DNA from: Porphyromonas vaginalis
GTDB lineage: Bacteria > Bacteroidota > Bacteroidia > Bacteroidales > Porphyromonadaceae
Assembly (NCBI RefSeq): GCF_958301595.1
Contig: NZ_CATQJU010000001.1
Span: 1,302,001-1,366,000 of the forward strand
Direction: 5' to 3'
Length of the DNA stretch: 64,000 bases
A program made the position numbers and the translations under genes. Shown in pieces: positions 20,606 through 63,482 of this stretch. The notes below the pieces were generated by a model. That model did no database searches and was not told the origin of the DNA. It was given only the letters and a program-made list of their open reading frames with translations. Every line of letters starts with the position of its first letter. Positions within the stretch are counted from its first letter, which is position 1.

Positions 20606-20790
20606 CGCTTACAAAGGTAGACAAAAGTCGCAAGCTATGCGCCATGAATAGGGTGTGCAAACTGTCGGGACGAAGCAATCCCTGTGGAGGGACGAAAATC
20701 TCCCAAGCGGGGTGGGACGAAAACTTCCCATCAGTTTGAAACAGCACTTCCGGGGGAAATGCGGCTCCTAGGGAGGGCATCTCCTGACAT

Positions 20791-20965
20791 GAGACTATTG
20801 CAAAAGTCAACAGTTTCACAATCTTGCCTGCAAGATTGTCCAGACTTTGCAGAAAGGATGAAGCGCAAGGCGCTGAGGGTGAGGTCTGAAGGGAGCATAC
20901 ATCCGTATGTGACCGAAGCCGAATCCCGAAAGCAACACAGCGATTCGCCTTTATGCAACGGTCTC
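20791..20965. mobile_element. 175-bp MITE-like element, copy 1, with 5-bp target duplication
   Basis: The ends are GAGACTATTGCA and TGCAACGGTCTC (inverted, 10 of 12 matching), and the element is flanked on both sides by GACAT. Inside are an 18-bp hairpin (AATCTTGC-CT-GCAAGATT) and other small inverted repeats (CATAC-ATCC-GTATG). Copy 2 at 53740-53914 is the same length, in the opposite orientation and about 95% identical. No transposase is encoded, so movement would need one in trans. Confidence 0.82.
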
Positions 20966-21062
20966 GACATATAGCAGAGGCGGTGCCACCCCGCGCTGGG
21001 GAGACACCGCCTCACTGTATCTATTTCGTGTAGCCTCGCTCGGAGACTAACGATCTAGGCGA

Positions 21063-53629: not shown

Positions 53630-53739
53630 GCGACACTAGCACATATTAATTCCTCAAGCAGTCGCCCCCAGAGGCGATGCTGCAGAAGCCGTGTAGTTCT
53701 ACCGATCAGAGCTGCATGGCTTCTCCGAATATACCGCAG

Positions 53740-53914
53740 GAGACTATTGCATAAAGGCAAATCGCTGTGTTGCTTTCGGGATTCGGCTTCGGTCACATAC
53801 GGATGTATGCTCCCTTCAGACCTCACCCTCAGCGCCTTGCGCTTCATCCTTTCTGCAAAGTCTAGACAATCTTGCTTGCAAGATTGTGAGACTGTTGACT
53901 TTTGCAACAGTCTC
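53740..53914. mobile_element. 175-bp MITE-like element, copy 2 (inverted)
   Basis: The ends are GAGACTATTGCA and TGCAACAGTCTC, and the flanks CGCAG and CGTAG form a 4-of-5 direct repeat. The element is the same length as copy 1 at 20791-20965 and reads as its reverse complement with about eight differences. Its right 27 bp (53888-53914) are the palindromic unit found alone at 5537 and 47151. Confidence 0.82.
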
Positions 53915-53939
53915 CGTAGAGGTGACACTATAATATAAT

Positions 53940-55754
53940 ATGAGTCAGATGCCCCGTCAGGCTGGGATAGCCGTTCCCCTCTTTAGTCTGCGTCGCCACG
54001 GCGATGCGGGCTGTGGTGACTTTGCCGCCCTGGAGGCACTTGCGCCGGTGGCTGAGCGGATGGGGATGCGCATCATACAGTTGCTCCCGCTGGAAGACAC
54101 CACCCTCTATGGCGATAGTCGCGACTCTTATCCCTATCGCCCGATAGCCTCTACGGTGCTCAATCCGATCTACATAGCTGTGGATCAGCTCCCCCCGCTG
54201 GCGGATCAACAGCTGGAGCAGGAGCTGCGTGCGGAGGCTGAGCGACTGAGTGCGCAAAAGACCTTCGACTATACGGCGGTGTGGCAACTCAAGCGACGCT
54301 GGCTGTGGGCCTCCTTTACGGAGCAGGTGGACGCTTCGCCATACTTCACCGATATGCTCAACCGCTATGCTGGGTTGACGCTCAAGTATGCTACTTTTAG
54401 TCGTTCCCCCATCTGGCACTACTGGGTCTGCATGCGAATGGCTCTAGACCTATTGCCCGATCTCAATCGTGAGGAGTGGGACTTCTGGGATGCAATGAAG
54501 CGGGTCAAGGAGCTGGAACAGGAAAACAAGCCTTTGGTCGTCCGTACGGGCAATTTCTACGCTTACTGCTATATGGTAGCGCAGCGACAGATGCGCCGTG
54601 CCGTAGCTACGATTCGTCAGCATGGGCTGGCGCTCATGGGCGATCTGCCCGTAGGGGTCGATCCGCATGCAGCGGACACGCTTGCTTACCCGGCCCAATT
54701 TAACAAGCGACTCTCGTGCGGAGCTCCTCCCGACTACTTCTCTCCAGATGGGCAGAACTGGGGTATCGTAACCTGTCGCAGGAATTGGAAAACGCTATGG
54801 CGTGAGCGCTTTGACTATCTAGAGCGCTTCTATGACTACCTGCGTGTGGATCACGTGCTGGGCTTCTTCCGCATCTGGTCCATACCACGGGACGGGCGCT
54901 CTGGGATGCTGGGCTACTTTCTTCCCTCACGACGCTACTTGAAGCGGGAGATCACCAAGCTAGGACTGGCCGAGACGCTACGACCGGAGTGGATAGCGCC
55001 GACCAAAAATCCAGCAACGACGCAGGTCCTTTGGATCGAACGTCTCGATGCGGGCTACGTGCCGCGCTACGATGTGGCGAGTGCTGCGCCCTTTGCAAAG
55101 CTGTCGCCCGATCTGCAGGAGCGTATGCGGGCTGTCTGCGAGGAGTATTATTACGGTGGCAATGAAGAGTTGTGGCGCGAGCGTGGACTGGAGCGTCTAA
55201 CCTTCCTGAAGTCCTTGACTTCGATCCATCTTTGTGCCGAGGACTTGGGGATGGTCCCTCAGTGTGTCTACCCCGTCCTAGAGGAGCTAGGCATCCTCAA
55301 GCTATATGTGGAGCGCATGCCTAAGAGTGCCGGCATCGAGTTTGAGGCAGCACCCTACTTCTCTGAGGATAGTGTCGGCACCACCTCGACGCACGACTGT
55401 GCGCCACTACGCCTCTGGTGGGCGGAAGATGCTGCGCGGTCTCGTCGCTACTACGACTACTTCCTCACTGATTACGGCGTCCCCTACGACACCACGCTCA
55501 CGCCCGAGCTGGCCGAGATCATCGTGCGCCGACACCTAGAGAGTCCCTCACGACTCTGCATATTGCCGCTGCAAGACTGGCTAGCCCTGAACCCCGAGCA
55601 CTGCGCCACGGTCGATCCTCATAGCGAGCAGATCAACGACCCGAGCAACCCCCATCATGTCTGGTGCTATCGTATGCCTAGCCATGTCGAGGAGCTCCCC
55701 GACGACTGGATACGGCAGCTTCGCCAGATGATCGCAGAGACGCATCGGCTGTAA
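53940..55754 (+). CDS. malQ: 4-alpha-glucanotransferase (GH77)
   Basis: 604 aa. It starts MSQMPRQAGIAVPLFSLR, with GDFAALEALAPVAERMG and the GH77 catalytic elements LRVDHVLGFFRIW (nucleophile Asp), CAEDLGMVP (acid/base Glu) and TSTHDCAPLRLWW (transition-state Asp). The N-terminal carbohydrate-binding extension of plant-type DPE2 enzymes is absent. It transfers maltooligosaccharide chains, for glycogen or maltodextrin turnover. No other glycogen genes are in the window. It begins 26 bp after the MITE-like element, which may bring in or block upstream transcription. Confidence 0.96.
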   Translation: MSQMPRQAGIAVPLFSLRRHGDAGCGDFAALEALAPVAERMGMRIIQLLPLEDTTLYGDSRDSYPYRPIASTVLNPIYIAVDQLPPLADQQLEQELRAEAERLSAQKTFDYTAVWQLKRRWLWASFTEQVDASPYFTDMLNRYAGLTLKYATFSRSPIWHYWVCMRMALDLLPDLNREEWDFWDAMKRVKELEQENKPLVVRTGNFYAYCYMVAQRQMRRAVATIRQHGLALMGDLPVGVDPHAADTLAYPAQFNKRLSCGAPPDYFSPDGQNWGIVTCRRNWKTLWRERFDYLERFYDYLRVDHVLGFFRIWSIPRDGRSGMLGYFLPSRRYLKREITKLGLAETLRPEWIAPTKNPATTQVLWIERLDAGYVPRYDVASAAPFAKLSPDLQERMRAVCEEYYYGGNEELWRERGLERLTFLKSLTSIHLCAEDLGMVPQCVYPVLEELGILKLYVERMPKSAGIEFEAAPYFSEDSVGTTSTHDCAPLRLWWAEDAARSRRYYDYFLTDYGVPYDTTLTPELAEIIVRRHLESPSRLCILPLQDWLALNPEHCATVDPHSEQINDPSNPHHVWCYRMPSHVEELPDDWIRQLRQMIAETHRL

Positions 55755-62411: not shown

Positions 62412-63464
62412 ATGACCAGCTCCATCTTCCTAGACTTTCGTGGTTTCGTGCTGCTCTTATTCCTCTTAGGCAGTGGTTGTTGCTTGGTAGCGCAGCAGAG
62501 GTTTACCATTGTCTCATACAATGTGGAGAACCTCTTTGACACCATCCCCAGCACCCGCTGGGATGATCGCGAGTACCTCCCCACGGCCCGCAAAGGGTGG
62601 ACGGCAGAGCGTATGAAGCGCAAGTGCCATCAGCTAGCCGAGGTGATCTCCTATGCGACCGCCTGGGATATACCCGCTCTCATAGCACTACAAGAGGTCG
62701 AGAGCGTAGAGGCACTCGAGCAGCTGGCGCACTACACGCTCTTACGAGGGGGCAACTACAAGACCATCTGCGCCACAGGCTCCGACCGCCGTGGTTCTCA
62801 CGTGGCTCTGCTCTATGACGCAGACCGCTTTGCCGTAGAGCAGACCGAGGAGTGGCCACTGTGCATCACGCCCGACAGCATCTACCCGACACGCAACCTG
62901 CTCTTCGTCTCCGGTCGCCTCCCCTCCGCAGCGCCGCTCTCGCTCATCGTCTGCCACCTCCCCTCACGCCGAGGAGGTGCTACCGCCGAGACTGCTCGTG
63001 CTGCGCTCATCGAGATGCTCCGCACGCGTACCGATAGCCTGCTGAGGGCTAATCCTGAGCAAAGCATCGTCGTCGTGGGTGACTTCAACGCCACCCCAGA
63101 AGATGGCTTGACCGACAGCTGGGCTGCCTCCTACCACACCTACCTATCTCAAAACGATTCGTTAGCTATGGTAGACCTCACGCCCCCATTCACCGACGAG
63201 CAACTCAAGACGATGCCCCCAGGGAGCTACTATTACCGAGGCTACTGGGAGCGCATCGACCGACTCTTCGTCTCCCGCACGCTGCTCACCGAGACGCGCT
63301 ATCCGCGTCTAGAGCTAGAGACGGTACGCATAGCCCTGCCCCCGCAGAAGTACATGCACGAGAGCCCAGCCCCGTGGGGCCGTCCGCGACGAACGTACGG
63401 CGGCGACAGCTACCTCGCCGGCCCCAGTGACCACCTTCCGCTCGTCGCCACCCTCCTCTACTGA
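62412..63464 (+). CDS. Endonuclease/exonuclease/phosphatase family protein (exported)
   Basis: 350 aa from ATG 62412; an ATG at 62382 falls in the terminator stem and is rejected. A signal peptide (FRGFVLLLFLLGSGCCLVAQQ) precedes the EEP fold: VSYNVENLFDT, ALQEVESVEALEQL, GSDRRGSHVALLYD, VVGDFNATPEDGL and GPSDHLPLVATLL. These carry the catalytic Asp/Asn/His set for metal-dependent phosphodiester cleavage. Substrates in this family range from nucleic acids to phospholipids and inositol phosphates. Its stop codon is formed by the first bases of a palindromic element (TGAGAC). Confidence 0.9.
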   Translation: MTSSIFLDFRGFVLLLFLLGSGCCLVAQQRFTIVSYNVENLFDTIPSTRWDDREYLPTARKGWTAERMKRKCHQLAEVISYATAWDIPALIALQEVESVEALEQLAHYTLLRGGNYKTICATGSDRRGSHVALLYDADRFAVEQTEEWPLCITPDSIYPTRNLLFVSGRLPSAAPLSLIVCHLPSRRGGATAETARAALIEMLRTRTDSLLRANPEQSIVVVGDFNATPEDGLTDSWAASYHTYLSQNDSLAMVDLTPPFTDEQLKTMPPGSYYYRGYWERIDRLFVSRTLLTETRYPRLELETVRIALPPQKYMHESPAPWGRPRRTYGGDSYLAGPSDHLPLVATLLY

Positions 63465-63482
63465 GACTTTTGCAACAGTCTC
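63463..63482. mobile_element. 20-bp shortened palindromic solo element
   Basis: GAGACTTTTGCAACAGTCTC is the 27-bp unit of 5537-5563 lacking seven central bases. It overlaps the TGA stop of the preceding gene and may also act as a hairpin terminator. Confidence 0.5.

Follow-up and report, generated by a model that had tools for sequence, protein, structure and literature searches.

A non-autonomous 175-bp MITE of Porphyromonas and the 27-bp palindromes best read as its deletion scars

Two copies of a short repeat

What is the 175-bp sequence that occurs twice, next to different genes, in a 64,000-nt stretch of DNA (the window) from Porphyromonas vaginalis, and what has become of its other copies? 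The original prediction, made from the letters of the window, took it for a mobile element resembling a MITE. The host genome (2.52 Mb, G000) is close to Porphyromonas uenonis and P. asaccharolytica. We compared it with P. uenonis DSM 23387 (G024), P. uenonis 60-3 (G025), the fragmented MAG CAMCJO (G022), Bacteroidales bacterium KA00251 (G016), another Porphyromonas genome (G012) and a genome in one contig of 2,186,370 bp, which is presumably P. asaccharolytica (G001). A literature search of limited reach found no paper on the 175-bp element in P. uenonis or P. asaccharolytica. The features of the window are as follows.

20786..20790, no strand: left target duplication GACAT of copy 1 (a single GACAT in L326)
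20791..20965, + strand: MITE copy 1, full length, 175 bp (empty site in G024, L326; 27-bp scar form in G022, L327)
20791..20802, + strand: left terminal inverted repeat of copy 1, GAGACTATTGCA
20791..20817, + strand: 27-bp end palindrome of copy 1, the portion that persists as a scar elsewhere
20808..20817: internal copy of a 10-bp direct repeat, the inner 10 bp of the end palindrome, copy 1
20818..20839, no strand: 22-bp palindrome ACAATCTTGC-NN-GCAAGATTGT, copy 1
20954..20965, − strand: right terminal inverted repeat of copy 1, GAGACCGTTGCA on the − strand
20956..20965, + strand: terminal copy of the 10-bp direct repeat (CAACAGTCTC in the consensus), copy 1
20966..20970, no strand: right target duplication GACAT of copy 1
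53735..53739, no strand: target duplication CGCAG of copy 2
53740..53914, − strand: MITE copy 2, full length (full copy shared with G022, L261; empty in G024, L264, and G025, L263)
53888..53914, − strand: 27-bp end palindrome of copy 2
53915..53919, no strand: target duplication CGTAG of copy 2, mutated from CGCAG (CGCAG on both sides in L261)
63463..63482, − strand: 20-bp remnant GAGACTGTTGCAAAAGTCTC

Both copies have the predicted positions and length and are about 95% identical, copy 2 lying in the opposite orientation. Read on the + strand, the outermost 12 bp are GAGACTATTGCA / TGCAACGGTCTC in copy 1 and GAGACTATTGCA / TGCAACAGTCTC in copy 2, so that the inverted ends noticed earlier (GAGAC-NTTGCA) prove to be 12-bp terminal inverted repeats with the consensus GAGACT(G/A)TTGCA. 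Copy 1 is flanked by a TonB-receptor-like gene and a FimA-family gene, and its GACAT duplication is exact on both sides, as had been claimed. Copy 2 is located between efp and a 4-alpha-glucanotransferase gene (53940-55754), with the end of the copy 25 bp before the ATG. The "near" duplication described for copy 2 is present as CGCAG/CGTAG; in the closest relative (G022, L261) each flank reads CGCAG, so the duplication was originally exact and one base changed afterwards.

Family size and insertion sites

The family is far larger than the two copies known from the window, and many further sites carry a 27-bp remnant only. A DNA search of the host genome found at least 40 copies with 94-100% identity along almost their entire length (scores were obtained for 40 of 116 candidates), and close copies number about 30-40 or more in five other genomes of the genus. 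Across 33 full-length copies the divergence from the consensus averages 2.8%, and one copy is the consensus itself. The host genome contains 144 occurrences of the motif GAGACNNTTGCA and a single one of its reversed control; many of the GAGACNNTTGCAAAAG motifs, however, are not full elements, but free-standing 27-bp sequences, GAGACTGTTGCAAAAGTCAACAGTCTC, identical to the left 27 bp of the element. The left end appears more conserved than the right, but many of these loci had been located by means of an exact left-end pattern, and we therefore do not use this as evidence.

The flanks bear the mark of insertion. In 30 of the 36 full-length copies with both flanks read, the bordering bases match at 4 or 5 of 5 positions, which is expected by chance in 1.6% of cases each; the duplication is 5 bp long, and 6 bp in a few copies. 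The comparison with relatives that the original prediction had proposed uncovered empty sites for both window copies. In G024 the site of copy 1 is empty and holds one GACAT, and the site of copy 2, occupied in G022 with an exact duplication, is empty in G024 and G025; at empty sites the target duplication is single. Copies without duplications, fixed at conserved positions in all relatives, had been named as the contrary outcome, which did not occur. At 175 bp the element leaves no room for a transposase gene and falls within the size range of MITEs (roughly 50-1000 bp). Copy number, target duplications, empty sites and the existence of an insertion sequence (IS) with the same ends thus bear out the MITE reading: the repeat is a non-autonomous MITE, a small parasitic DNA element of a real and ordinary kind, and well supported as such.

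A second, distinct family of short repeats (L054:1473-1650) also came to light; each of four related genomes contains many matches to it.

Parent insertion sequence

The proposed search for an IS with the same terminal repeats, as a source of transposase, came out in favour of the prediction: such an IS exists outside the host, both in G012 and as the published ISPg4. What had been missed is that the host genome itself yielded no source transposase. ISPg4 of P. gingivalis (IS5 family) has the ends GAGACTGTTGCA / CGCAACAGTCTC, and MITE464/MITEPgRS of the same species has GAGACTGTTGCA / TGCAACGGTCTC (PMC4596501); both pairs match the ends of the 175-bp element. In G012 we found an intact IS of 1,330 bp encoding a 371-aa IS5 transposase (NF033581). 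Its left end (L124) equals the right end of the MITE at 12/12 bp, and its right end agrees with the left end of the MITE at 17/18 bp. Two copies of this IS (L124 and L146) are bordered by exact 5-bp duplications, TATTG and AATAG, of the same length as those of the MITE. The interior of the MITE has no clear match to the G012 IS. With no such transposase detected in the host, it is the ends and the duplication length that pair the MITE with the IS, and from these we infer that the element is IS5-derived, of the ISPg4/IS1126 type. A source transposase in the same genome would be expected of a mobile family, although an origin from the IS does not require it. Searches with the G012 transposase gave no match in the host, in G022 or in G025; G001 has short fragments of it, and G024 (L304) a 116-aa C-terminal fragment with a matching right end. 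The element thus looks stranded in this clade.

Other candidates for the source were rejected. Among host elements, the multi-copy PF01609 and PF05598 types are discounted as a direct source by their different ends (CAGGGCTGACGCATTATAA, AATAGTGTCCTAAACG and GGGGCTGTGTCAAAAGTC), and two single-copy host transposase genes (L120, L121) have no GAGAC-type ends nearby. A search for spread on known plasmids or phages gave no match. Two minor observations may be added. In G012, a copy of the parent-type IS harbours a diverged relative of the MITE (187 bp, L137:639-825), which has an exact AAGTA duplication. On host contig C1 (566125-569150; L102-L104), three copies of the 407-aa-type DDE transposase gene stand in a row, 1,192 bp apart, like a tandem IS array.

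Short palindromes as remnants of the element

What is new in this analysis is the set of approximately 25 free-standing 27-bp palindromes in the host genome, a figure that leaves out three full copies (L047 and two in L056). Most of them have target duplications, with flanking bases matching at 4 or 5 of 5 positions in 19 of 25. They are best read as internal-deletion scars of the element, shrunk in place. In the consensus, CAACAGTCTC at positions 18-27 and 166-175 is the only direct repeat of at least 7 bp, and its two copies lie exactly at the scar boundaries. Loss of the DNA between them yields precisely the 27-bp palindrome, still framed by the original duplication; the internal copy of its end sequence thus gives the element a built-in deletion hot spot.

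Orthologous positions display the full element, the scar and the empty site. At the site of copy 1, G022 has the 27-bp form between the same GACAT/GACAT, and position 7 is an A in this form just as in the full host copy. The 27-bp form in the host corresponds to a full element in P. uenonis DSM 23387 at L037/L216, with AAAAG on both sides in both, and a full host copy corresponds to 27 bp in the MAG (G022) at L060/L211. Four states are found at a single site (L015/L171/L238/L254): full in the host, full in DSM 23387, 20 bp in strain 60-3 and empty in the MAG. At L059/L179 the host has 20 bp against 27 bp in DSM 23387. The window itself contains such a 20-bp remnant (63463..63482), which is identical to the 20-bp derivative at the orthologous MITE site of P. 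uenonis 60-3 (L238) and shows no visible target duplication. Copies with internal deletions at other short repeats also occur. At the site of copy 2, a degenerate 27-bp-like sequence lies nearby in G001 (L262), but the flanks align too poorly for it to be accepted as a scar.

How the remnants were made is a separate question. That the transposase made them, by aborted or imperfect excision and not by replication slippage, is conceivable insofar as the inner repeat reproduces the terminal repeat in inverted orientation and might be mistaken for an end and cut. We consider this unlikely: the 20-bp remnants and the deletions at other short repeats suit slippage at whatever repeats are present, and the transposase is not found in the host genome.

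A further possibility is that the 27-bp palindrome is mobile in its own right, its two 10-bp inverted ends being used directly by a transposase that inserts it alone. Such a unit would have both terminal inverted repeats and the target duplications counted above, and two host scars lie opposite empty sites in the closest relative (L038/L149 and L054/L271), a pattern that, taken alone, also fits direct insertion of 27 bp. The three sites at which orthologous positions hold the full form in one genome and the 27-bp form in another, between the same flanks, speak against it, as do the distinctive base that the copy 1 scar has in common with the full copy and the very little space that 27 bp offers to two transposase-bound ends. 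We regard this origin of the palindromes as very unlikely, and the mixed case, in which they are scars and are able to transpose alone as well, as similarly improbable. If true, a self-transposing 27-bp palindrome would be among the smallest mobile DNA units known.

Internal-deletion scars thus remain our reading of the palindromes, and a joint account of an IS5-type MITE moved in trans, a lost source and remnants formed by slippage is, in our judgment, highly probable. An IS5-family transposase of the ISPg4/IS1126 type would have acted in trans on GAGACTGTTGCA ends, inserting copies with a 5-bp stagger, and would later have been lost from the lineage, leaving the copies stranded. Remnants would then arise via replication slippage between the CAACAGTCTC repeats at 18-27 and 166-175, presumably assisted by the inverted ends, by analogy with Tn10. 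Tn10 is a large transposon and its nearly precise excision an experimental system in E. coli, whereas the decay of the 175-bp element is deduced from orthologous sites. The likeness lies in the mechanism only: in Tn10, too, nearly precise excision removes the DNA between short direct repeats, is favoured by inverted repeats and leaves a remnant within the target duplication. Its recombination has been attributed to replication slippage (discussed in PMC12524634). MITE decay would in this way account for a class of short palindromic repeats of a bacterial genome, these being its end product.

Several remnants have peculiarities of their own. In four loci (L156, L157, L187 and L209) the 27-bp end palindrome carries its 7-bp loop in the opposite orientation to the remainder of the element, as would be expected if copying of the palindrome occasionally went through a hairpin. 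In five others (L032, L064, L040, L052 and L094) 27-bp or 20-bp remnants directly adjoin sequence resembling CTGACGCATTAT, the end of another host IS (378-382-aa transposase), which suggests nested insertions. A 64-bp derivative (L089:738-801) consists of two inverted copies of the right end of the element, with 4/5 flanking bases matching.

Folding of the element

The interior had been said to fold into several short hairpins. The 27-bp end and the 22-bp palindrome do fold well, and the + strand folds better than shuffled sequences (z -5.2); covariation, in turn, gave no support for selection on RNA structure. Substitutions in the long stem kept 35 pairs and broke 113, with one double change. 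Most substitutions in stems thus disrupt pairing, and the best reading of the hairpins is as a by-product of palindromic DNA. Selection for a conserved regulatory or RNA element, such as a terminator or small RNA, would agree with the strong folding of one strand and with the mostly intergenic position of the copies, but is contradicted as a general explanation by the empty sites in relatives, the target duplications, the broken pairs and the lack of an Rfam match for the element, and we give it almost no credence, although individual copies could affect their neighbours.

Comparison with known elements

MITE464/MITEPgRS of P. gingivalis belongs to the same genus and has the same terminal repeats (GAGACTGTTGCA / TGCAACGGTCTC), but is set apart by its published description, which gives it internal 41-nt tandem repeats (PMC4596501); the 175-bp element lacks these, and its consensus contains no direct repeat longer than 10 bp. 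The BrickBuilt MITEs of P. gingivalis (PMC4596501) likewise have GAGACC-type ends, are intergenic and lack a transposase, but contain a 23-nt minisatellite and differ in interior and end sequence. The ends of ISPg4 (GAGACTGTTGCA) and ISPg1/ISPg8 (IS1126; GAGACCATTGCA in ISPg1) are like those of the MITE, and the related G012 IS makes 5-bp duplications; these elements are autonomous and contain a transposase gene, whereas the MITE has none and only the ends are in common. In this clade of human-associated Porphyromonas, a MITE family apparently outlives its transposase.

The element is also found at a greater distance. Hallella bergensis DSM 17361, a Prevotellaceae-type genome, contains a near-consensus 175-bp copy with an exact 27-bp end (L168:635-809). 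Primase-like and relaxase-like genes lie within a few kb of it, suggesting either that a mobilisable element brought it in by horizontal transfer or that the assembly is contaminated.
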